Source of the DNA: Rhodoplanes tepidamans
Lineage (GTDB): Bacteria > Pseudomonadota > Alphaproteobacteria > Rhizobiales > Xanthobacteraceae
Direction of reading: 5' to 3'
Assembly (NCBI RefSeq): GCF_030813915.1
Contig: NZ_JAUSUJ010000022.1
Location: 1-64,000 of the forward strand
Length of the DNA: 64,000 nt
In this document: piece after piece, positions 11,817 through 35,079 of the stretch
Layout: each line of letters opens with the position of its first letter
Numbering within the stretch: position 1 is the stretch's first letter
Position numbers and translations under genes: made by a program
Notes under the pieces: generated by a model
Told to the model about the DNA's origin: nothing
The model's database searches: none
Seen by the model: only the letters and a program-made list of their open reading frames with translations

Positions 11817-12152
11817 GCGAGGGCGGACTCCTGGATCGAATTCCTGTGGGGTTTGGCTCTCTCGTAACCGCCCGCGCCCGAAAGTGCAACGGTCGACAGG
11901 CCAGGATTGCAATTTTTTATGAGGTATTTCTGTCGTGAATTGAGTAGAACAAAGAACGCAGAACGGATATGTGATTGACTGACGCGGAATTTGGATGCAG
12001 CCCTTGCTTCTGCGTGGCAAGCCCGTGACGACCAATTTGGGTCGCGCCCCATCCGAACTGTCCGTACATAAGGTGTCGACGCAGCGAGTCCGGATCCGCG
12101 GCCATTCACGGCCCGTATCCCCTATACTAAGATACCAAATAACGAGAGACCC
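11817..12152. promoter_or_regulatory. Divergent promoter region rpoZ / NYN gene
   Basis: This 336-bp gap is markedly AT-richer than its surroundings (for example GCAATTTTTTATGAGG and GTGAATTGAGTAGAAC). It has no convincing gene. A TATACT hexamer at 12123-12128, about 24 bases before the NYN start, is a plausible -10 box on the plus strand; I could not pair it with a good -35. The rpoZ promoter must also lie here. Confidence 0.45.
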
Positions 12153-12806
12153 ATGGCAGTGCCAAGCGAAAAAATCGCTCTGTTCATCGATGGAGCAAAT
12201 CTGTACGCGACTGCGAAGTCGCTTGGATTTGACATCGATTACAAGCGATTACTGCGCGAGTTCCAGGGCCGAGGCTATCTTCTGCGCGCGTTCTATTACA
12301 CGGCTGTCGTAGAGGATCAGGAATATTCGTCGATTCGCCCCCTGATCGACTGGCTCGACTACAACGGCTACACGGTGGTGACCAAGGCCACCAAGGAGTT
12401 CGTCGACCAGACCGGCCGGCGCAAGGTGAAGGGCAACATGGACATCGAGCTCGCGGTCGATGCCATGGAGATCGCCGGCAACATCGACCACATGGTGCTG
12501 TTCTCCGGCGATGGCGACTTCCGGTCGCTGGTCGAGGCCGTGCAGCGGCGCGGCGTCCGGGTCACCGTGGTGTCGACCATCTCGACCCAGCCGCCCATGG
12601 TGGCGGACGAGCTGCGCCGGCAGGCCGACGTGTTCCTCGACATCGTCGAGTTGCAGCCGAAGATCGGCCGCGACCCCGGCGAGCGTGCCGAGCGGGCGGC
12701 CCGGGAGCCGCGGCACACGCCGCAGTTCCTCACCCGCGGCACCACGCCGCGATCGTCGACACCGGCCCCGGCGCCGGCCAACGGCGACACGTTCGACGAA
12801 GACTGA
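12153..12806 (+). CDS. NYN-domain ribonuclease, LabA/DUF88 family
   Basis: This 217-residue protein has the PIN-like NYN fold (residues about 8-165). Predicted metal-binding acids lie in [17 protein letters not shown], in [12 protein letters not shown] and in [22 protein letters not shown] proteins are RNA endonucleases or RNA-binding proteins; the substrate here is unknown. The tail after residue 170 is Arg/Pro/Thr-rich and disordered. It is followed 10 bp later by a uracil-DNA glycosylase gene, so the pair is probably one transcript. Codon use shifts sharply inside the gene: the first 60 or so codons are AT-tolerant and the rest is as GC-rich as the neighbours. GAGAG before the ATG is the likely ribosome site. 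Confidence 0.88.
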
Positions 12807-13614: not shown

Positions 13615-14103
13615 TCACCCCTTCACGCTGGCGCGCAGCAGCCGGCCCTTCTCGCGGTTCCAGTCGCGCTGCTTCTCGGTCTCGCGCTTGTCGTGGAGCT
13701 TCTTGCCGCGGCCGAGCGCCAGCTCGATCTTGGCGCGGCCACGGTCGTTGAAATACATGCGCAGCGGCACGATGGTCATGCCCTCGCGCTCGGTGCCCTG
13801 GGCCAGCTTGGCGATCTGCCGCTTGTGCAGCAGCAGCTTGCGGCGCCGCTTCGGCTCGTGCTGGAAGAACGGGCCGGCCTGCCCGTATTCGGGGATGTTG
13901 GCGTTCACGAGCCAGATCTCCCCGCCCTTCGCTTCGGCATAGGATTCTGCAATCGTCGCGCGGCCTTGGCGCAACGACTTCACCTCCGATCCGAGCAGCG
14001 CGATGCCGGCCTCGAAGGTCTCGCCGATTTCGTAGTGGAAGCGCGCCTTGCGGTTGTCCGCAACGACCTTGCGCGCCTTCTCCCTGTCCTTGTCGTCAGC
14101 CAT
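13615..14103 (-). CDS. smpB: SsrA-binding protein
   Basis: This 162-residue partner of tmRNA is needed for rescue of stalled ribosomes. Signature stretches are [40 protein letters not shown] and [19 protein letters not shown], and the basic C-terminal tail is [18 protein letters not shown]. It is the third gene of a minus-strand group dapA-mscL-smpB; dapA-smpB adjacency is frequent in Hyphomicrobiales. It lies 9 bp after mscL. No tmRNA gene was recognised in this window. Confidence 0.95.
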
Positions 14104-14112
14104 GGTCTCGGT

Positions 14113-14541
14113 TCACGGGCGCGCGCCCTGCTGCATTCTCAGCAGGTCGCGGATCTCGGTCAGGAGCTCCTCCTGACGCGGCGGCGTCGGCGGCTTCGCC
14201 GGCACCTCTTGGCGCAGCCTGTTCATCGCCTTGACCACCAGGAAGAGCACCCAGGCGACGATCACGAAGTTGATGCAGAGCGTCAGAAAGCTACCCCATG
14301 CCAATACAGCGCCTTGTTTTTTCGCCTCGACGAGCGTGTCCGCCGTGACCTTCGGGGAGAGCGGCAGGAAGTGGTTCGAGAAGTCGAGCCCACCCGTCAC
14401 GGCGCCGATCAGCGGCATGAACACGTCGGCGACCAGCGACTGGACGATGTTGCCGAAGGCGGCTCCGATGACGACGCCGACCGCCAGGTCGACGACGTTG
14501 CCGCGCACGGCGAACGTCTTGAACTCCTCGAGGATCGGCAT
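14113..14541 (-). CDS. mscL: Large-conductance mechanosensitive channel
   Basis: This 142-residue inner-membrane channel opens under membrane tension to release solutes in hypo-osmotic shock. The N-terminal helix and first membrane segment are standard ([20 protein letters not shown], with [20 protein letters not shown]). The second segment is [20 protein letters not shown], and the C-terminal cytoplasmic helix is [16 protein letters not shown]. The ATG at 14541 has GGAG about 11 bases upstream. It lies between dapA and smpB, 9 bp before smpB and 77 bp after dapA. Confidence 0.95.
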
Positions 14542-26457: not shown

Positions 26458-28164
26458 CTACTGCGAGATCGGCACCTCGAGGCGCGTGTTCGCCGACAGA
26501 GCGCGGTAGTTCGTGTTGGCGTTGCGGTAATCGGCCATGGCGTCGATGTCGTCGTCGCTCACGCCCTGGATCGTCAGCCGATCGCCCCGCAACCGGAACC
26601 GCTCCAGCGGAAACACGACCTGGTCCTCGCCGAAGCCGAGGAACCCACCCGAGGCGATGACGACATGGCGCCGGTTGTCGCGGTCGGCGACGACGGCCTG
26701 GATGTCGCCGAGCCGCTCGCCGCGGGCATTGTACACGTCGAGATCCGTGATCGTTTCGACCATCATGGTGCGGGTCGGCTGGCCGGCGCTGCCGGTCGTC
26801 TCTGCCTCCGCCCCGCCGAGGCGGGCGCGGGCCTTGCGCCGCTCCTCGTCGGTGGGCCGGTTGCCGGCCGCGGACTGCTGCTGCGCCTGCTGCCCGGCGG
26901 GCGACTGTCGAGCCTGGGGCTGCCGGTCGTCCTGCTGGGCCTGCTGCCGGGCTTGGGCTTGGCGTTGCTGCTGCGTCTGCTCCCGACCGGCCTGCTGCCG
27001 GCCCTGCTGGCCGCTCCGGTCACCCGCCTGCTGCTCCTCGTAGAAGACGCGCGGCTGGCCGTCGGCCTCCCGATAGACGACCTTCGGCTCGCCGGTGCGC
27101 TCGAAGCGCACGTTCGGACGGCGGCTCTCGTTGGCGATCTGCACGTTCGGATCGTCCGCCCGCCTCACGGTGACGTCCGGCCGGCCGCGCTCGACGTCCA
27201 CCTGGGCCTGCTGCTGCTGGTCGGGCCTGGCGACCCGGACCTGCGGCTGCGGCTGGTCGACCTCGACGCGCGGCGGCTGCATGGCCACGTTCACGTCCGG
27301 CTGCGGCATCCGGACGACGATCTCGGGCTGCGGCTGGTCGACCGTGATGGTCGGCGGCAGCTGGCGCACCACGATCTCGGGCTGTCGCTGATCGACCGTG
27401 ACCCGCGGCTGTCGCTGATCGACCGTGACCCGCGGCGATCCCTGGTCGATCTGCACGCGCGGCGGCGGCTGCCGCACCACGATCCGCGACGGATCCGCCT
27501 GGTCACCCTGATCGGCACCGGCCTGGTCGGCGCCGGTCCGGGCCTGCCGTTGCTGACCCTCGGCCTGCCGACCCTGTCCCTGCGGCCCCTGGCCCTGCTG
27601 TGCGGATCCGACCTGCTGACGCGCGATCCCCTGCTCGATCTGCCGCGCCGACTGGAGATGGTCCCGCAGGGTCGGAAGCGTCTGCCTGGCGAACTGCTGG
27701 AGCTGGCCTTCCTCGCCGCCGCGGACGAAGGACTCGTACAGCGACACCGCCTGCTCGTGCGCCTTCACCTGCATGTCGACATAGCGGCGGTCGAAGCCGG
27801 AGCCGCTGGCGTTCTGCAGCTCCTGGATCATCTGGGTGTGCTGCTGGTCGAGCGCGTCCGGGATGCTCTGGTTCTGCGCGGCGGAGCGCAGGCGCTGGCC
27901 GGCCTGGCCGTGCTCCTCGATCATCCGCTGGGCGAACTGCCGGACCTGCTCGTTCCGAGCCTTGGTGTCGGCGAGCCGGCTCGACTGGATCTCGAACAGA
28001 TTGCTCACGGCCGCGCGCTGCACGAACTCGGCCGCCGGAATCGATCGCGCCTGCTGCCCCTGGGCCTGCGCACCCGGCTGCCGCGCCGTCTGCGCAGTGG
28101 CGGGGAGCGGCACCAGGGCCGTCGATGCGAGTGCGGCGGACGCAAAAAGAGTGATCGCCCTCAT
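26458..28164 (-). CDS. Exported DUF4142 - beta-repeat - PRC-barrel protein
   Basis: This 568-residue protein has a signal peptide (MRAITLFASAALASTALVPL, cut near ATA-Q). A ferritin-like DUF4142 domain follows (about residues 40-180; AAVSNLFEIQSSRLADTKAR, EHGQAGQRL, MQVKAHEQAVSLYESF). Next comes a Gln/Gly-rich linker, then about ten decapeptides of the type QPxPxVxVDQ (about 225-330). A Gln-rich segment leads to a C-terminal PRC-barrel-like domain (TITDLDVYNARGERLGDIQA, SGGFLGFGEDQVVFPLERF). The alternating Val pattern suggests a stacked beta structure. AGAGGAA lies before the ATG at 28164. Function is unknown; periplasmic or surface stress roles are plausible. It lies downstream of the two-component genes in the same direction but 478 bp away. 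Confidence 0.8.
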   Translation of the reverse strand: MRAITLFASAALASTALVPLPATAQTARQPGAQAQGQQARSIPAAEFVQRAAVSNLFEIQSSRLADTKARNEQVRQFAQRMIEEHGQAGQRLRSAAQNQSIPDALDQQHTQMIQELQNASGSGFDRRYVDMQVKAHEQAVSLYESFVRGGEEGQLQQFARQTLPTLRDHLQSARQIEQGIARQQVGSAQQGQGPQGQGRQAEGQQRQARTGADQAGADQGDQADPSRIVVRQPPPRVQIDQGSPRVTVDQRQPRVTVDQRQPEIVVRQLPPTITVDQPQPEIVVRMPQPDVNVAMQPPRVEVDQPQPQVRVARPDQQQQAQVDVERGRPDVTVRRADDPNVQIANESRRPNVRFERTGEPKVVYREADGQPRVFYEEQQAGDRSGQQGRQQAGREQTQQQRQAQARQQAQQDDRQPQARQSPAGQQAQQQSAAGNRPTDEERRKARARLGGAEAETTGSAGQPTRTMMVETITDLDVYNARGERLGDIQAVVADRDNRRHVVIASGGFLGFGEDQVVFPLERFRLRGDRLTIQGVSDDDIDAMADYRNANTNYRALSANTRLEVPISQ

Positions 28165-28642
28165 GTCGTTCCTCTTCGATGTTGGAATGCGTGGTCGTGA
28201 ATCGGCGATACCGGATCGGAGACGCTGGATCGGCGATCGCATGGCTTCGTCGGCCCGTGCCCGGTCGACCGGCCGGACGGACCGGCATCGGGCGACGGCC
28301 GCGGACGGCGGAACGCGAACACGGATGCGACGCGCGGCCGTGGGGCTCGCACCCTCGGAGCCGCCGCTCCGGACCGGCTTGTTCGCGCTTCGGGCCGGAC
28401 GGACGCCGGACGAACATCGCCCGGCGTCGAGGAAACGGGTTCGCGCACGCCGCCGTTCCTGCGTCACGACGACGAGGCGCCCCAAGCTCGGTACGAAAGC
28501 GAACTGCGCCGAGGCCGCCGCGTGCCCGGACGTGCACGGCCGCGGACGCGGCGTCACCGCCTCCGACGAGACGCGCTCCGAACGAGGTGCGGGCGAACCA
28601 TCACCACAGCGAGCCGCAGCCGGACGCGCCCCGGTCCGCCCC
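28165..28642. other. 478-bp gap without a recognisable gene
   Basis: The gap lies between the histidine kinase stop and the DUF4142 gene start. It is GC-rich and contains repeated GGATCGGCGAT-like words (28200-28240). Open frames on both strands lack ribosome sites and protein-like sequence. It probably holds the promoter of the DUF4142 gene. Confidence 0.5.
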
Positions 28643-29950
28643 TCAGCTCCACGCCAGGGCGCACCGCAGGCCGCTGCGGTCGCTGCGGTTGGCGAAGCCG
28701 AGACGGGCGCCGAGCCGGCGGGCGGCCATCTCGGCGATGGTCAGCCCGAGTCCGGTGCCGGAGGCGCTCCGGTGGCGGCCGCGCCAGAACCGCCGGGTGA
28801 CGAGCGCGAGCTCCTCGTCGGGAATGCCGGGCCCCTCGTCCTCCACGGCGAGACCGAGCCCGCCGGGCAGCGGCGCCCAGGCGATGCGGCCGCCGGCCGG
28901 CATGTGCTCGACGGCGTTCTCGTGCAGATTGCGCAGCACCAGATGCAGCATCTCGCGCTCGGCCGGGACGCGCAGCCCGTCGAGCGCCGGATCGACCGTG
29001 ACGGTGGTGCCGGCCGGCAGCGGGAGCGAGGCGACGACGTCGCGCAGCACCGCCCCGGCATCGATCGTGCCCTCCGGGCGGGCGGCGCCCATCGCCTCGA
29101 GGCGGGCGAGCGCCAGGAGCTGGCGGGTCAGCCGCGTCGTGCGGTCGACCGACACCAGGATCTGGCGCAGCGCCCCGTCGCGGGTCGCGGCGTCGGGCGC
29201 CGCCAGCGCGACCTGGGCCTGCGTCTTCAGCCCGGCGAGCGGGGTGCGCAGCTCGTGCGCCGCGAAGGCGGTCACGTCGCGCTCGTGGCGGCGCGCCGCC
29301 TCGACCTTGCCGAACAGGCCGTTGAGCGCCGAGAGCAGCGGCCGCACCTCGCGCGGCGCCCCCTCCGTCGGCACCGGCCGCATGTCCTCGCCGTCGCGCG
29401 CCGCGATCTCGCCGGCCAGCGCTTCGAGCGGCCGCAGGCCGCGGCCGAGGCCGGCCCAGATCAGCACCCCGAGCAGCGGCACCACCAGCAGGATCGGCGC
29501 CAGCATCCCGGCGACGAGGTCGCGCACCAGCCGGTCGCGCAGGCCGAGGCGATCGCCGACCGCGACGCGCACGCCCTTGTCGCGGTCGACGATGGTGTAG
29601 ACCCGCCACGTCTCGCCGTTCACCTCCCGGTCCGAAAAGCCGTCCTGGTCGGCGGCCAGCCGGCCGTCCGGCGCCCCCGAGGAGCGGCCGACCAGCCGTC
29701 CGTCCAGCGACCAGATCTGGCAGGAGAGCTGACGCGCGTAGCCGGTCGCGTCGACGGCGGCGCTCGCCGTCGACGTCATGGCCGAGCCGGCAAGCGAGTG
29801 GACCATCCGGGCCGCCTCCTGCAGCCGGGTGTCGAGCACGCGCTCGAGCTCGGCGCGGCTGCCGAGCGAGATCCAGGCGATGGCGGACAGCCAGATGACG
29901 CCGGTGGCGGCGAGCAGGAGAACGAACAGGCGGCGCTTCAGCGAGGTCAT
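28643..29950 (-). CDS. Sensor histidine kinase of the QseC/PmrB/TctE class
   Basis: This 435-residue inner-membrane kinase has an N-terminal transmembrane segment (about residues 7-29), a periplasmic loop of about 110 residues (FSDREVNGETWRVYTIVDRD) and a second segment (about 146-168). A HAMP-like linker follows. His232 in AFAAHELRTPLAGLKTQAQV is the phosphorylation site. ATP-binding boxes are NLHENAVEHMPAGG (N), VEDEGPGIPDEEL (G1) and GTGLGLTIAEMAARRLGARL (G2). It begins 13 bp after the response regulator stop, so the two form one operon. The sensed signal is unknown. Confidence 0.92.
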   Translation of the reverse strand: MTSLKRRLFVLLLAATGVIWLSAIAWISLGSRAELERVLDTRLQEAARMVHSLAGSAMTSTASAAVDATGYARQLSCQIWSLDGRLVGRSSGAPDGRLAADQDGFSDREVNGETWRVYTIVDRDKGVRVAVGDRLGLRDRLVRDLVAGMLAPILLVVPLLGVLIWAGLGRGLRPLEALAGEIAARDGEDMRPVPTEGAPREVRPLLSALNGLFGKVEAARRHERDVTAFAAHELRTPLAGLKTQAQVALAAPDAATRDGALRQILVSVDRTTRLTRQLLALARLEAMGAARPEGTIDAGAVLRDVVASLPLPAGTTVTVDPALDGLRVPAEREMLHLVLRNLHENAVEHMPAGGRIAWAPLPGGLGLAVEDEGPGIPDEELALVTRRFWRGRHRSASGTGLGLTIAEMAARRLGARLGFANRSDRSGLRCALAWS

Positions 29951-29963
29951 GGCCGGACCGGGA

Positions 29964-30626
29964 TCACGGCTGGCCGCGCATGCGATAGCCGATGCCCCGC
30001 ACGGTCTCGATCGCGGCGCGGCCGATCTTGGTGCGCAGGTTGTGGATGTGGACCTCGACGGCGTTGCTCTCCACCTCCTCGTCCCAGCCGTACAGGCGGT
30101 CCTCGATCTCGCTCTTCGAGCGGATAACGCCGGGTCGCTCCATCAGGGCCGACAGCACCGCGAATTCGCGGCGCGACAGCGGCACCGCCTCGCCCGCGAC
30201 GGTGGCGACCTGGGTGGCGGGATCGAGCACGACGCCGGCCGCCTCCAGCACCGGGCTCGCGCGTCCGTCGCGCCGGCGCACGATCGCGCGCAGGCGCGCC
30301 GCGAGCTCGTCGAGATCGAACGGCTTGCCGAGATAGTCGTCGGCCCCGGCGTCGAGGCCGGCGATGCGGTCGGACGTCTCGTCGAGGGCGGTGAGCAGCA
30401 GCACCGGGGTCGCGTCGCCGCGCCGCCGCACGTCGGCGAGCACGTCGAGGCCGGAGCCGTCCGGCAGCATCACGTCGAGCACCACGGCGTCGAACCGCGC
30501 CGCCGCGAGCGCGGCGCGCGCGTCGGTGCAGGTCGCGACGCGATCGATGGTCGCCCCCGACAGGCCGAGGCCGACCTTCAGGCCGTCCGACAGCACCGGA
30601 TCGTCCTCGACCACGAGGATGCGCAT
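29964..30626 (-). CDS. OmpR-family response regulator (QseB/PmrA/TctD-like)
   Basis: This 220-residue two-domain regulator has a receiver with acidic pocket VVEDD, phosphorylated Asp51 in AVVLDVMLPDGSG and Lys in LGKPFDLDEL. The C-terminal winged helix shows LSRREFAVLSALMERPG and NAVEVHIHNLRTKIG followed by IETVRGIGYRM. The ATG at 30626 has GGAGGT directly upstream; nine extra codons further up lack support. A CTTAAG-N5-CTTAAG direct repeat lies 69-85 bases upstream of the ATG, in the gap shared with dsbD. That suggests autoregulation and control of the divergent operon. Confidence 0.93.
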   Translation of the reverse strand: MRILVVEDDPVLSDGLKVGLGLSGATIDRVATCTDARAALAAARFDAVVLDVMLPDGSGLDVLADVRRRGDATPVLLLTALDETSDRIAGLDAGADDYLGKPFDLDELAARLRAIVRRRDGRASPVLEAAGVVLDPATQVATVAGEAVPLSRREFAVLSALMERPGVIRSKSEIEDRLYGWDEEVESNAVEVHIHNLRTKIGRAAIETVRGIGYRMRGQP

Positions 30627-30694: not shown

Positions 30695-30711
30695 CTTAAG
30701 GCTGGCTTAAG
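30695..30711. promoter_or_regulatory. PmrA-box-like operator CTTAAG-N5-CTTAAG
   Basis: CTTAAG at 30695-30700 and again at 30706-30711 are separated by GCTGG. This is the spacing and half-site (YTTAAK-N5-YTTAAK) known for PmrA/QseB-type regulators. It lies between the divergent response regulator and dsbD genes, 49 bases before the dsbD ATG, in sequence that is otherwise strongly GC-rich. Confidence 0.7.
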
Positions 30712-30759: not shown

Positions 30760-32592
30760 ATGAGAGGATCGTCCTGCCGGGTTCCCGCCCGGCTGATCGG
30801 CTGTCTGGCCGGCATCGTCGTCGCCCTCCTGGGCCTCCTCGCACCGGCCGCGACCGCCGAGCCGCTGCCGCCGCCGGCCGACGAGGTCTTCACGCTCGCG
30901 GCCCGCCGGGCTCCCGACGGAGTCCTGGCGATCCGCATCGCCGCGGCGCCCGGCCACTATCTCTACCGCGACGGGATGCAGGCGGTTCTCGACGGCCGCG
31001 CCCTGCCGCTCGCGCTGCCGGCCGGGACCGAGAAGGACGACCCGAACTTCGGCCTCGTCGAGATCTATCACGACGCCGTCGAGGCCCGCCTCGCCGATGC
31101 GCCGGCCGCCGGCCGGCTGCGCGTCTCCTATCAGGGCTGTGCCGAGCGGGGCATCTGCTACCCGCCCGTCGCCAAGGTGATCGACCTCGCGACCCTCGCG
31201 GTGAGCGATCCGCCGTCCCGCATGGTCGACGGCACCCGCGTGGCGGTCGCGCCGGGCGGCGCCGCGGCGGACGCACAGGGACCGGCGTCGGCGTCGACGC
31301 CGTCGCTCGCACCGGAGCCGGATGCCACGGCCGGCCTCCTGGCCGGCGGCTGGGGACCGATGCTCGCCGCCTTCCTGCTGTTCGGCGTCCTGCTCGCGCT
31401 GACCCCGTGCGTGTTCCCGATGATCCCGATCCTGTCGGGCATGCTGGTGCGCTCCGGCGAGACGCTGTCGCCGCGGCGCGGCTTCGTGCTGTCGGCGAGC
31501 TACGTGATCGCGATGGCGGCCGCCTACGGACTGCTCGGCCTCGCCGCCGGCTGGTCGGGTGCCAATCTCCAGGCGGCCCTGCAGACGCCCTGGGCGCTCG
31601 GGCTGATGGCGGCGGCGCTCGTCGCCCTCGCGCTGTCGATGTTCGGCCTGTTCGACATCGCGCTGCCCGCCGGGCTCGCGGCGCGGCTCGGCGGGGCGCG
31701 GGGCGGCGGCGGATCGATCACCGGGGCGGCGCTGCTCGGCTTCGCCTCGGCCCTCGTGGTCGGCCCGTGCGTGACCCCGCCGCTCGCCGCCGCGATGCTC
31801 TACGCCGCGCAGACCGGCGAGGCCGGCAAGGGCGCGGCGGCGCTGTTCATGCTCGGCCTCGGCATGGGGCTGCCGCTGGTCGCGGTCGGCACCTTCGGGG
31901 CCCGCGTGCTGCCGCGCTCCGGGCCATGGCTCGCGCGGGTGAAGCAGATCTTCGGCGTCGTGTTCCTCGCGGTCGCCGCCTCGCTGCTGACCCGGATCCT
32001 GCCGGGCCCGGCCGCGCTCGCCGTGTGGGGCGTGCTCGCGCTCGCGGCCGGCGTCTTCCTCGGCGGCTTCGATCGCCTCGGTCCCGCGAGCGAATGGCGA
32101 GGCCGGCTCGGCAAGGCCGCCGGGCTCGCCGCGGCGACCTACGGGGTCCTGCTTCTGGTCGGCGCCGCCGGCGGCGCCAACGATCCGCTGCGGCCGCTCG
32201 CCTTCCTGATGTCGGACCATGCGACCACCCGTGAGGCGCCGGCGCCGACGCGGGTCGCGTCGCTCGCCGCGTTCGATCGTGCCGTGGCGGCCCATACGGG
32301 CGGGCCCGTGCTGGTCGCCTTCACGGCCGACTGGTGCACGGTCTGCCGGTCGAACGAGGCGGTGCTGTCGGAGCCGGCGATCCGCGCCCGCCTCGCGCGG
32401 CTGCCGGTGATCGCCGCCGACGTGACGACCTACGGCGACGACACCCGGGCGCTGATGGCCCGCTTCGCCGTCGTCGGCCCGCCGACCCTCTTCCTGCTCG
32501 ACGCCGCCGGCCGGGAGATCCCGGGCTCGCGGCTGATCGGCCCGATCACGGCCGACGAGATCGCCCGCCGCCTCGCCGCGGCCGGCGCGTGA
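30760..32592 (+). CDS. dsbD: Thiol:disulfide interchange protein DsbD
   Basis: This 610-residue inner-membrane protein moves electrons from cytoplasmic thioredoxin to periplasmic thiol proteins. The signal peptide and N-terminal periplasmic domain carry the Cys pair in YQGCAERGICYPP. Eight or so membrane segments hold the transmembrane cysteines (LTPCVFPMIPILSG and VGPCVTPPLAAAM). The C-terminal thioredoxin domain has DWCTVCRSNE. All six redox cysteines are present, so it should be functional. The ATG at 30760 has GGGGAG upstream. It heads an operon with the DsbA/DsbG-like gene (32 bp later), an L,D-transpeptidase and a TauE exporter, divergent from the two-component genes. Confidence 0.93.
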   Translation: MRGSSCRVPARLIGCLAGIVVALLGLLAPAATAEPLPPPADEVFTLAARRAPDGVLAIRIAAAPGHYLYRDGMQAVLDGRALPLALPAGTEKDDPNFGLVEIYHDAVEARLADAPAAGRLRVSYQGCAERGICYPPVAKVIDLATLAVSDPPSRMVDGTRVAVAPGGAAADAQGPASASTPSLAPEPDATAGLLAGGWGPMLAAFLLFGVLLALTPCVFPMIPILSGMLVRSGETLSPRRGFVLSASYVIAMAAAYGLLGLAAGWSGANLQAALQTPWALGLMAAALVALALSMFGLFDIALPAGLAARLGGARGGGGSITGAALLGFASALVVGPCVTPPLAAAMLYAAQTGEAGKGAAALFMLGLGMGLPLVAVGTFGARVLPRSGPWLARVKQIFGVVFLAVAASLLTRILPGPAALAVWGVLALAAGVFLGGFDRLGPASEWRGRLGKAAGLAAATYGVLLLVGAAGGANDPLRPLAFLMSDHATTREAPAPTRVASLAAFDRAVAAHTGGPVLVAFTADWCTVCRSNEAVLSEPAIRARLARLPVIAADVTTYGDDTRALMARFAVVGPPTLFLLDAAGREIPGSRLIGPITADEIARRLAAAGA

Positions 32593-32624
32593 CCCACCCT
32601 CACCCAACCGGATCGGAGACGTTC

Positions 32625-33251
32625 ATGAGACGCAGAGACCTGATTCTGCTCGCCGCCGGCGCGGCTCTGACCGCGGCGGCGCCGGGACTGTCCCGCCGGG
32701 CCGCGGCGCAGGGGATCGATACCGAGGCGATCCTGCGCGATCCCGAGGCGCCGACCTTCGGCAACCCGAAGGGCGACGTCACCGCGGTGGCGTTCTTCGA
32801 CTACAACTGCCCCTTCTGCAAGAAGGCCGCGCCCGATCTCGACCGCGCCGTCGCGGAGGACGGCAAGATCCGGCTGGTCCTGAAGGACTGGCCGATCCTC
32901 ACCGAAGCCTCGGTGTTCGGGGCGCGGCTGGCCCTCGCCGCCGCCTATCAGGACCGCTACGCGCTCGTCCACCACGCCCTGATGGCGATCCCCGGGCGGC
33001 GGATCCCCGAGGAGACGATGCGCGAGGCGGTGCAGGCGTCGGGCGTCGATCTCGCCCGGCTGCAGGCCGACCACGACAAGAACGCGGACCGGATCACGGC
33101 CCTGCTCCGCCGCAACGCCGCCCAGGCACAGGCCATCGGCCTGCAGGGGACGCCCTCCTATCTGATCGGCCCGTTCCGCACCTCGACCCTCGACTACAAG
33201 GGCTTCAAGCAGGCCTTCGCCGAGGCACGCCGCCGGCAGGCCGCGCAGTGA
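32625..33251 (+). CDS. DsbA/DsbG-family periplasmic thiol-disulfide protein
   Basis: This 208-residue thioredoxin-fold protein has an N-terminal export signal (MRRRDLILLAAGAALTAAAP) with an Arg-rich start that could use Tat or Sec. The redox site is CPFC in FFDYNCPFCKKAAPDLDR, and the cis-Pro loop is LQGTPSYLIGP. A helical insertion between them (about residues 100-160) fits the DsbA fold of COG1651. CPFC does not by itself decide between oxidase and reductase. Its place right after dsbD argues that DsbD keeps it reduced. GGAG lies before the ATG. Its stop overlaps the start of the next gene (GTGA). Confidence 0.88.
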   Translation: MRRRDLILLAAGAALTAAAPGLSRRAAAQGIDTEAILRDPEAPTFGNPKGDVTAVAFFDYNCPFCKKAAPDLDRAVAEDGKIRLVLKDWPILTEASVFGARLALAAAYQDRYALVHHALMAIPGRRIPEETMREAVQASGVDLARLQADHDKNADRITALLRRNAAQAQAIGLQGTPSYLIGPFRTSTLDYKGFKQAFAEARRRQAAQ

Positions 33252-33955
33252 GCATCCGCATGACCCCCGTCTGTCCGCCGCGCCGTCGCACGGCGGGCCC
33301 CCTCTTCGTCGTTCTGGCCGGTCTCGCTCTCGCGGCCTGCCAGACCACGGCGGCGGCGCCGCCCGTCGCGCCGGCGGCCGCATCGCCGTCCCCCGACGCC
33401 CGACGCTACGCCGCCGTCACGACCGAGCCGTTCGTCGTGCCGGCCGTGGAGCCCGACGCGCTGAAGCCGCGCTACATGCGCCGTCTGGTCGACGACCCGA
33501 CCGGCGAGCCGCCCGGCACCGTGGTGGTCGATCCGGAGAACCGCTTCCTCTATCTGGTCCAGGAGGGCGGCAAGGCGCTGCGCTACGGCGTCGGGGTCGG
33601 CCGCGAGGGGCTCGCCTTCTCGGGCACCGCGACGGTCGCCCACAAGCGCCGATGGCCGCGCTGGACCCCGACGCCGGACATGATCGCGCGCGAGCCGGCG
33701 AAGTACGCCAGATGGGCCGGCGGCATGGACGGCGGCGCCGAGAATCCGCTCGGCGCCCGCGCCCTCTACCTGTTCAGGAACGGCAAGGACACGCTCTACC
33801 GCATCCACGGCACCAACGAGCCGTGGTCGATCGGCGAGGCGGTGTCGTCCGGCTGCATCCGGATGATGAACCAGGACGTCATCGACCTCTACGGCCGGTT
33901 GCCGGACGGCGCCCGGGTCGTCGTCCGCCCGGCCGGCCGCGGAGTCTCCTCTTGA
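33248..33955 (+). CDS. L,D-transpeptidase (YkuD) lipoprotein
   Basis: This 235-residue envelope enzyme forms 3-3 peptidoglycan cross-links or anchors proteins to peptidoglycan. The lipobox LALAAC places the lipidated Cys at residue 31. The YkuD domain spans about 95-230, with the catalytic His in YRIHGTNEPWSIG and the active-site Cys in SSGCIRMMNQDV. VVVDPENRFLYLVQ is the first strand. I give the GTG at 33248, which overlaps the upstream stop as GTGA; an ATG four codons later (33260) is possible, and neither has a good ribosome site. The active-site Cys must be reduced, which fits an operon with dsbD and a DsbG-like gene. Confidence 0.9.
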   Translation: MSIRMTPVCPPRRRTAGPLFVVLAGLALAACQTTAAAPPVAPAAASPSPDARRYAAVTTEPFVVPAVEPDALKPRYMRRLVDDPTGEPPGTVVVDPENRFLYLVQEGGKALRYGVGVGREGLAFSGTATVAHKRRWPRWTPTPDMIAREPAKYARWAGGMDGGAENPLGARALYLFRNGKDTLYRIHGTNEPWSIGEAVSSGCIRMMNQDVIDLYGRLPDGARVVVRPAGRGVSS

Positions 33956-34013
33956 CGGTCCGGGCGCCGCGGCGACGTCCGGTCGCGCACCACCTCCGTG
34001 CGGGCACAGTGCC

Positions 34014-34814
34014 GTGACGGACCCGTCGCTGCTTCCCGCCCTCGGGGCCGGCGGAATCGTCGGCTTCGTGCTCGGCCTCGTCGGCGGCGGCGGCTCGGTG
34101 CTCGCCACGCCGCTGCTGCTCTATCTGGTCGGGATCGAGAGCCCGCACGTCGCGATCGGCACCGGCGCGCTGGCGGTGTCGATCAACGCCTATGCAAATC
34201 TCGCCTTGCATGCGCGGCGCGGCCATGTGCGCTGGCCGCACGCCGTCGTTTTCGCGCTGGTCGGCACGGCGGGCGCGCTGCTCGGCTCGAGCCTGGGTCT
34301 CCTGGTGGACGGGCGACGGCTGCTGTTCCTGTTCGGCCTGGCGATGGCGGGCGTCGGCGTCGCGATGCTGCGGCGGCGTCCCGCGACCGCGGGCGCGCTC
34401 CGCCCCGTCGATCTCCGGTCGGGGCTGGCGACGGCGGCGGCCGGAGCCGTGACGGGGCTCGCCTCCGGCTTCTTCGGGATCGGCGGCGGCTTCCTCGCGG
34501 TGCCGGCGCTGCTCCTCGCCACCGGCATGTCCACCATCGGGGCGGTCGGCTCGTCGCTGCTGGCGGTCGGCACCTTCGGGCTCGCGACGGCGCTGACCTA
34601 TGCGCGCGCCGGGCAGGTGGACTGGATGATCGCCGCCGAGCTCGTCGCCGGCGGCCTGGTCGGCGGGGTGCTCGGCATGCTGCTCGCCGTTCGCCTGTCC
34701 GGCCACAAGGCGGCCCTGAATCGCATCCTGGCGGCGCTGGTGCTGACGGTCGCGGCCTATGTGCTCCTGCACAGCCTTCCGGGGCTCGACCCGACCGGCA
34801 CCGCCCGGCCGTAG
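34014..34814 (+). CDS. TauE/SafE-family membrane exporter
   Basis: This 266-residue inner-membrane protein has about eight hydrophobic segments in two repeated halves. Each half starts with the family's Gly-rich pattern: GFVLGLVGGGGSVLATPLLL and GLASGFFGIGGGFLAVPALL. The family (TSUP, DUF81) exports or imports sulfite, sulfoacetate and other organosulfur anions; the substrate here is unknown. The start is GTG (34014), 58 bp after the L,D-transpeptidase. As the last gene of the dsbD operon it may handle a sulfur compound linked to thiol chemistry, but this is only inferred from position. Confidence 0.88.
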   Translation: MTDPSLLPALGAGGIVGFVLGLVGGGGSVLATPLLLYLVGIESPHVAIGTGALAVSINAYANLALHARRGHVRWPHAVVFALVGTAGALLGSSLGLLVDGRRLLFLFGLAMAGVGVAMLRRRPATAGALRPVDLRSGLATAAAGAVTGLASGFFGIGGGFLAVPALLLATGMSTIGAVGSSLLAVGTFGLATALTYARAGQVDWMIAAELVAGGLVGGVLGMLLAVRLSGHKAALNRILAALVLTVAAYVLLHSLPGLDPTGTARP

Positions 34815-34985: not shown

Positions 34986-35079
34986 TGGCGGAGCCGGAGG
35001 GATTCGAACCCTCGATACGGCTTTAAGGCCGTATAACGGTTTAGCAAACCGCCGCCTTCAGCCACTCGGCCACAGCTCC
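34986..35079 (-). tRNA. tRNA-Ser (anticodon GCU)
   Basis: This 94-nt gene includes an encoded CCA end. The acceptor stem GGAGCTG pairs with CGGCTCC (one G-T pair), and the D-arm reads GCCGAGTGGCTGAAGGC. The anticodon loop is TTGCTAA with GCT. The long variable arm ACGGCCTTAAAGCCGT is typical of a class II tRNA. The T-arm is GAGGGTTCGAATCCCTC. It reads AGU/AGC serine codons. Confidence 0.97.

Follow-up and report, generated by a model that had tools for sequence, protein, structure and literature searches.

The 64,000-nucleotide stretch of Rhodoplanes tepidamans DNA analysed here (contig NZ_JAUSUJ010000022.1, positions 1 to 64,000; the window in what follows) contains a locus that brings together periplasmic thiol reduction, an L,D-transpeptidase and a two-component system. 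On the forward strand, dsbD (30760 to 32592, ATG start) encodes a full-length thiol:disulfide reductase with the Pfam domains DsbD_N, DsbD_TM and thioredoxin. It is followed, after 32 bases, by the gene of a periplasmic carrier of the DsbA/ScsC fold (32625 to 33251; CPFC codons at 32808 to 32819) and by ykuD (33248 to 33955), whose GTG start overlaps the carrier stop codon as GTGA and which encodes a predicted L,D-transpeptidase lipoprotein. The gene of a TauE/SafE-family exporter (34014 to 34814, forward strand; Pfam TauE) begins 58 bases downstream. The catalytic cysteine codon of ykuD, within the SSGCIRM motif, occupies 33854 to 33856. The four genes and their junctions agree with a preliminary description of this DNA, which however overlooked a divergently encoded two-component system and its operator, both part of the set. 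The reverse strand carries a QseB/PmrA-like response regulator (29964 to 30626, the start being the gene-caller choice in a reading frame open from 30653) and a QseC/PmrB-like sensor histidine kinase (28643 to 29950; 2CSK_N, HisKA and HATPase_c). Between regulator and dsbD lies the operator CTTAAGGCTGGCTTAAG (30695 to 30711), a perfect CTTAAG-N5-CTTAAG box with PmrA-type half-sites that ends 48 bases before the dsbD ATG.

DsbD is canonical, scoring 453 bits against an NCBIfam cut-off of 330 (NF001419). It possesses the N-terminal Ig-like domain, the membrane domain, a C-terminal thioredoxin domain with a WCTVC motif, and six cysteines (C127, C133, C217, C337, C526 and C529), all invariant in an alignment of nine sequences. 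The transpeptidase matches the YkuD domain PF03734 with 84 bits. Across 13 YkuD relatives, H187 and S200-S201-G202-C203 are invariant, and the lipobox Cys31 and the catalytic Cys203 are the sole invariant cysteines; in the mature window protein, the catalytic and the lipid-bearing cysteine are the only ones present.

The carrier precursor comprises 208 amino acids with a twin-arginine-like signal and has the fold, the CxxC motif (CPFC) and the presumed cis-proline of the DsbA superfamily, the latter preceded by threonine in a GTP motif. Its structure model (pLDDT 89.9) displays a bare DsbA/ScsC catalytic fold, with 3gyk as the nearest solved structure (TMt 0.92), followed by Caulobacter ScsC and Wolbachia alpha-DsbA2. 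DSBA (PF01323) and Thioredoxin_4 (PF13462) are its only Pfam matches. In the model, the signal region leads directly into the thioredoxin fold, with no N-terminal dimerisation domain or linker helix of the DsbG/DsbC type, so that the earlier label 'DsbA/DsbG-like' holds for its DsbA part, on account of PF01323 and 3gyk, and fails for its DsbG part. ScsC_N (PF18312) is not among the Pfam matches of the window carrier either; it is present in the DsbA protein of a metal island (L180) described below. Since the nearest folds include structures reported as disulfide isomerases in the available entries (ScsC 7rgv, 4xvw and alpha-DsbA2 6eez), the DsbA-like protein could be an oxidase or isomerase that folds stressed envelope proteins, with DsbD as its reductant and the transpeptidase as a wall-repair partner. 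The ScsC and alpha-DsbA2 isomerases are, as far as the available descriptions go, trimers. Trimeric isomerases of these types bear an N-terminal stalk, for which the mature window carrier is too short, and with ScsC_N undetected as well, such a folding role appears quite unlikely.

The grouping of these genes extends far beyond the window genome, and the proposal thus escapes the refutation that the preliminary description had tied to an adjacency found in this genome only; donor, carrier and YkuD occur together across many genera. A search of 397 genomes of the window's order found DsbD (E <= 1e-40) in at least 35 genomes and 18 of 142 genera, a lower bound with up to three candidates scored per genome and the nine positives of the 150-genome sample below included. 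Each of the 35 loci was inspected over 14 to 18 kb, or over the window in the case of its own locus: 33 have both two-component genes, 33 an exact box, 34 a DsbA-like gene (L221 gave no dsbA match) and 31 a YkuD relative. Two loci (L205 and L223) lack two-component genes, box and ykuD, and have kept only dsbD and dsbA. Distribution is patchy: within the window's family, the same search found DsbD in 3 of 19 genomes. A class-wide sample, again with up to three candidates per genome, gave at least 1 of 385. In a separate collection of named organisms, 17 of the 80 best DsbD loci cluster with the module, as the set of dsbD, dsbA, ykuD, two-component genes and box is called here. All 17 of these alpha-like loci contain dsbA, 15 the regulator, 14 the sensor and 13 ykuD, whereas neither dsbA nor ykuD was matched at the 63 DsbD loci from other bacteria (16 of the 63 stretches being under 10 kb). 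The named and the 397-genome sets share at least two organisms (G701:C4/L072 and G573:C5/L078), and their counts are not summed. All three of dsbD, dsbA and ykuD are present in, among others, Microvirga, Aquabacter, Methylobacterium, Bradyrhizobium, Kaistia, Hansschlegelia, Paracoccus and Sagittula; Salipiger (L079) has dsbD-tlpA-dsbA only. One locus labelled as a Solidesulfovibrio metagenome-assembled genome (L076) carries an alpha-type module and groups with alpha sequences in the DsbD tree; it is probably misbinned. Within the window genome, the neighbours of the other 17 YkuD places, as many as four called genes in each direction, show no CPxC or WCxxC motif, and the Dsb-YkuD adjacency in the window is therefore beyond chance.

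The two-component proteins find their best NCBIfam matches in the QseC/QseB and PmrB/PmrA models, under the equivalog cut-offs (regulator, 226 versus 345 bits for QseB and 220 versus 330 for PmrA; sensor, 219 versus 475 for QseC). Verified Salmonella PmrA boxes consist, according to the available text of PMC3973317, of CTTAAG and NTTAAT half-sites at a 5-base spacing. The exact CTTAAG-N5-CTTAAG box occurs in 23 of 24 module promoter regions, tested at hand-chosen coordinates; the remaining one (L091) has no more than a weaker site that differs at one position from a degenerate form of the pattern. Two loci with no regulator match stand outside this set: in L079 a box with one mismatch lies a short way ahead of dsbD, and in L074 there is none. 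The sequence on both sides of the box is unconserved except for a few columns. In a 150-genome sample of the order, with up to eight candidates scored per genome, the exact box is present in 9/9 DsbD-positive and 12/141 DsbD-negative genomes (Fisher p 3.5e-9). The latter figure lies within background, a control pattern occurring, by our own tally, in 33 of the genomes listed; in five of the nine positives the box is single-copy in the genome and sits at the module locus. A second round gave 24/26 new DsbD-positive genomes versus 1/13 DsbD-negative genomes of the window's family. The window genome has a second exact box (C18:51100), which overlaps the 3' end of one gene upstream of a similar gene; it is treated as chance because the reversed control pattern also turns up there, once exactly and three times with one mismatch.

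Boxes are not confined to dsbD promoters. In four genomes (G055, G569, G633 and G680) a box lies directly ahead of ykuD, the called starts being 55 to 161 bases away; it is common to ykuD and a divergent thioredoxin-like gene in G055 and G569, falls between dsbA and ykuD in G633, and precedes a second ykuD in G680. In G098 and G716 a single box separates divergent ykuD and dsbD genes. Given this placement and the co-conservation, YkuD looks like a real member of the regulon. Further boxes precede a DsrE-like gene, another with CxxCH motifs like those of cytochrome c, and a COX1 gene, which suggests a regulon that can extend to sulfur and respiratory functions. In L032, L215 and L229, no gene with a fitting orientation is called to start within 400 bases of the second box. 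Exact boxes away from the dsbD locus (G751:C5:170929-173386, three close together; G706:C56:185336; G755:C1:2500589) mark possible further regulon members.

The adjacency might also reflect hitch-hiking, that is, an ancestral block inherited or transferred with no functional link between its genes. Such an origin would fit the patchy distribution, which suggests transfer or loss, and the existence of two supported DsbD subtypes in the module. A passive block is, however, difficult to reconcile with gene order and strand that are reshuffled across loci while membership and box persist, with boxes directly ahead of ykuD genes, with the joint absence of two-component genes, box and ykuD from two loci, and with the presence of more than one YkuD lineage; mere hitch-hiking is therefore highly improbable. 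The comparison establishes co-conservation, a shared operator, largely joint absence and variable order.

In a DsbD tree made by a quick method, 26 module sequences split into supported subtypes of 17 and 9. Type A, to which the window belongs, is mostly arranged as dsbD-dsbA-ykuD. In type B, dsbD is followed by the gene of a protein that combines an LGT-like membrane part with an AhpC/TSA-thioredoxin part (domains determined on two of these proteins). Five of the nine type B loci have the order dsbD-tlpA-ykuD-dsbA (L052, L075, L077, L086 and L091), and a second YkuD is present in five (L035, L075, L077, L086 and L091). The YkuDs of module loci are scattered over several branches of the YkuD tree, with modest support, and YkuD was thus likely recruited to such loci more than once.

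Several individual loci deviate from these arrangements. In a Bradyrhizobium elkanii module (L071:12458-13109), ykuD matches as two overlapping pieces, owing to a frameshift or sequencing error. A Microvirga module (L065) has an extra free thioredoxin domain with a WCPIC motif after dsbD (12067-12357) and a second DsbA-like gene with CPYC after ykuD (13796-14497). In two relatives of the carrier (L067 and L072), CIYC replaces CPFC. A loose twin-arginine pattern is found within the first 40 residues of 21 of 25 module carriers and makes Tat export possible; the pattern is self-made and not specific, since several DsbA relatives that do not belong to the module match it too, the L076 match sits late, and the truncated L074 is not counted. 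Selenocysteine was considered for three DsbA relatives with one TGA each (L019, L020 and L026) and rejected; the TGA is read as a terminal stop because the CxxC genes there are intact. Pairs of ykuD and dsbA also exist with no DsbD in the stretch. Three loci of one genus (L053-L055; G138, G028 and G107) have such a pair with a CPAC carrier and a 1-base gap, and at L060, L061, L058, L181 and L182 DsbA genes lie near YkuD genes of different subfamilies, some of these sites adjoining apparent metal-resistance genes.

The surroundings of the module are often rich in sulfur genes. Counting seven families (homologues of dsrE, tauE, PDO, YeeE, SQR/BLH, soxB and soxC), at least two are found near 12 of 26 module loci (the window and 25 others) versus none of 108 control loci, which comprise other DsbA loci of the order (0/17), ScsB loci (0/12, with a single dsrE match at two of them), other DsbD loci (0/63) and other YkuD regions of the window genome (0/16). 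As the queries were drawn from module loci, they may miss distant homologues at the 63 other DsbD loci, and a fairer comparison is that with the 17, 12 and 16 control loci from the same order or the same genome. Neither set includes the DsbA loci L053-L055, L058 and L060-L062, which are paired with YkuD or more distant, or the ScsB loci with YkuD (L180, L183 and L191). Among 26 newly found module loci the link is weaker, with at least two families near seven. In Methylobacterium (L068 and L073), the run reads dsbD-dsbA-ykuD, a DsrE-like gene, two YeeE-like genes, tauE, a metallo-beta-lactamase-fold gene resembling persulfide dioxygenase, and a rhodanese, with one short opposite-strand gene inside.

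At the window locus, tauE is the only representative of these families. The preliminary description had counted TauE as the fourth gene of the set. This core role is rejected, as tauE lies near only 10 of the 26 module loci and five of the 26 new ones, on either strand and at varying distance. TauE is a frequent neighbour outside the core and tends to accompany persulfide-dioxygenase-like, BLH/oxidoreductase, YeeE-like or DsrE-like genes; in the window it is best read as the remnant of a sulfur-gene neighbour. Just 3' of it lies a tRNA-Ser(GCT) gene (34986-35079, reverse strand). Beyond the sensor gene, the reverse strand at 26458-28557 encodes a DUF4142 and PRC-barrel protein whose long central part is repetitive and has a high content of proline and valine.

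In view of the sulfur context, the DsbD-carrier pair might instead act in periplasmic sulfur or cytochrome chemistry, with YkuD as a co-induced envelope-repair member of one and the same regulon that is not reduced by the carrier. A model would be the reductant supply to SoxYZ, which SoxV-SoxW provides by means of a membrane thiol transporter and a periplasmic thioredoxin, or the reduction of DsrE/TlpA-type proteins. Besides the counts of sulfur families and the run in Methylobacterium, the boxes before DsrE-like, cytochrome c-like and COX1 genes and the loci that retain DsbD-DsbA without ykuD speak for this chemistry. Yet the window genome has an apparent Sox cluster elsewhere (L063, named by resemblance) with its own small CcdA-like and CPYC genes, and the commonest partner of the module, besides Dsb and two-component genes, is YkuD (21/26), ahead of TlpA-like and PDO-like proteins (11 each). 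Moreover, metal islands join ScsB and a ScsC-type DsbA to YkuDs away from this sulfur context. On balance, a sulfur or cytochrome function with YkuD as a bystander is an unlikely, though serious, alternative.

In the copper-type metal island L180 (G100), a multicopper oxidase, two YkuDs and a DUF411 protein are encoded together with a ScsB-type relative of DsbD, a ScsC_N-bearing DsbA and a heavy-metal P-type ATPase. L183 (G064) has the same gene order by resemblance, Pfam having been applied to L180 alone, and a second copy in G064 (L191) looks broken. The L180/L183 assembly occurs in two genomes of one genus. Three of the 15 ScsB places in the order search lie beside YkuD and 12 have no YkuD blast match; these 12 include L197, where a SHGCIR-motif protein with no blast match lies about 4.4 kb away, and L193, a 5.9 kb contig. 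According to the available text of PMC11390936, copper inhibits an L,D-transpeptidase in vitro and also suppresses L,D cross-linking in vivo; a reductase-carrier-transpeptidase set therefore makes sense in a metal island. The combination of ScsB, ScsC-type DsbA and YkuDs is an independent parallel to the module.

Taken together, the locus is probably a stress-controlled periplasmic reducing module that keeps the catalytic cysteine of YkuD usable. The sensor kinase would perceive envelope stress, and the regulator is predicted, from the conservation of the CTTAAG-N5-CTTAAG box, to bind it and switch on dsbD, carrier and ykuD. DsbD would pass electrons from cytoplasmic thioredoxin across the membrane, as known for its family, and its N-terminal domain would, judging by the conserved pairing, reduce the CPFC carrier. 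By analogy with E. coli DsbG, the carrier could then re-reduce the single YkuD cysteine once this is sulfenylated, persulfidated or blocked by copper, so that L,D cross-linking or lipoprotein anchoring would be maintained under stress. DsbG itself, which DsbD maintains in the reduced state, acts preferentially on transpeptidases that lose their single cysteine to sulfenylation (PMC3526765, in its available text, citing Depuydt 2009). As persulfide, sulfide and sulfite genes often adjoin the module, reactive sulfur is the first guess for the inducing stress and copper the second. The earlier proposal of a dedicated thiol-reduction module for a transpeptidase is thus supported in part: donor, carrier and YkuD co-occur under one predicted regulator, the carrier would be the presumed reductant of YkuD, and TauE is abandoned. 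A stronger version is put forward tentatively: an alphaproteobacterial two-component response devoted to protecting L,D-transpeptidase cysteines from sulfane sulfur, oxidation or copper, in which one box also switches persulfide-handling and respiratory genes in some lineages.

Several observations weigh against a module that serves the transpeptidase. ykuD is missing from four of the 35 order loci, two of which (L034 and L228) have two-component genes, box, dsbD and dsbA, and from four of the 17 alpha-like loci (L067, L076, L079 and L074), where L067 and L076 have kept two-component genes and box and L074 ends at a contig edge. DsbD-DsbA can also stand alone (L205 and L223); the carrier therefore has, or had, other clients. 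The joint loss is imperfectly clean, since L079 lacks two-component genes and ykuD and still has its near-box. The 17 further YkuD places of the window genome do without a Dsb-like neighbour, and the membrane TlpA-like protein of subtype B is possibly another electron user. The boxes before sulfur and respiratory genes imply a regulon wider than the wall, and the counts are not independent, as the samples contain several species per genus.

The literature searched, in which subscription journals were thinly covered, gave no description of this locus in the text available, in line with the preliminary description, whose author knew of none; the available text of a 2025 review on L,D-transpeptidases (PMC12729407) lacks the terms DsbG, redox, operon and thioredoxin. 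While the chemistry is already known from E. coli, no description of such a dedicated, regulated locus or of its sulfur context was found. The occurrence of the module in many genera and several arrangements, together with the ScsB/ScsC-type assembly, provides independent genetic support for the protection of transpeptidase cysteines. In E. coli, this protection by DsbG reportedly rests mainly on one protein-trapping study. The module is compact and probably inducible, so that the repair of a wall-enzyme cysteine and the stress behind the need for it become directly testable, and its carriers are soil and plant-associated bacteria. A devoted two-component response, if true, would tie sulfur metabolism to wall cross-linking.

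Among known systems, SoxV-SoxW resembles the module in pairing a membrane thiol transporter with a periplasmic thioredoxin, but its transporter is of the small CcdA-like type, found in the window genome in the separate cluster L063. The sulfur clusters beside module copies are presumably BigR/SqrR-type sulfide and persulfide detoxification clusters: an ArsR-family regulator, a metallo-beta-lactamase-fold protein, a BLH-phosphatase/oxidoreductase fusion, YeeE-like proteins and TauE lie beside many copies, yet they form a separate, variable neighbour, of which the window copy has TauE only. QseBC and PmrAB provide the best NCBIfam matches, and the CTTAAG half-sites are 5 bases apart as in the Salmonella PmrA boxes (PMC3973317, available text); the window proteins, however, stay under the QseB, PmrA and QseC equivalog cut-offs, and are predicted to control a thiol-reduction and transpeptidase module. 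The available text of PMC3668242 concerns a homologue of CcdA/DsbD encoded downstream of CadA, which differs from the module. The copper-sensitivity system ScsABCD likewise combines a DsbD-family reductase (ScsB) with a DsbA-like CPxC protein (ScsC) of similar carrier fold (available texts of PMC8900818, PMC5524982 and PMC3672137), whereas the window DsbD is canonical, its carrier has no ScsC_N, and most ScsB places of the order show no YkuD match. The E. coli DsbG-DsbD pathway shares the DsbD donor, the thioredoxin-fold carrier and the one-cysteine transpeptidase client. In contrast to the dimeric DsbG, the window carrier is a monodomain protein of the DsbA/ScsC fold, and donor, carrier and presumed client are united in one predicted two-component regulon.

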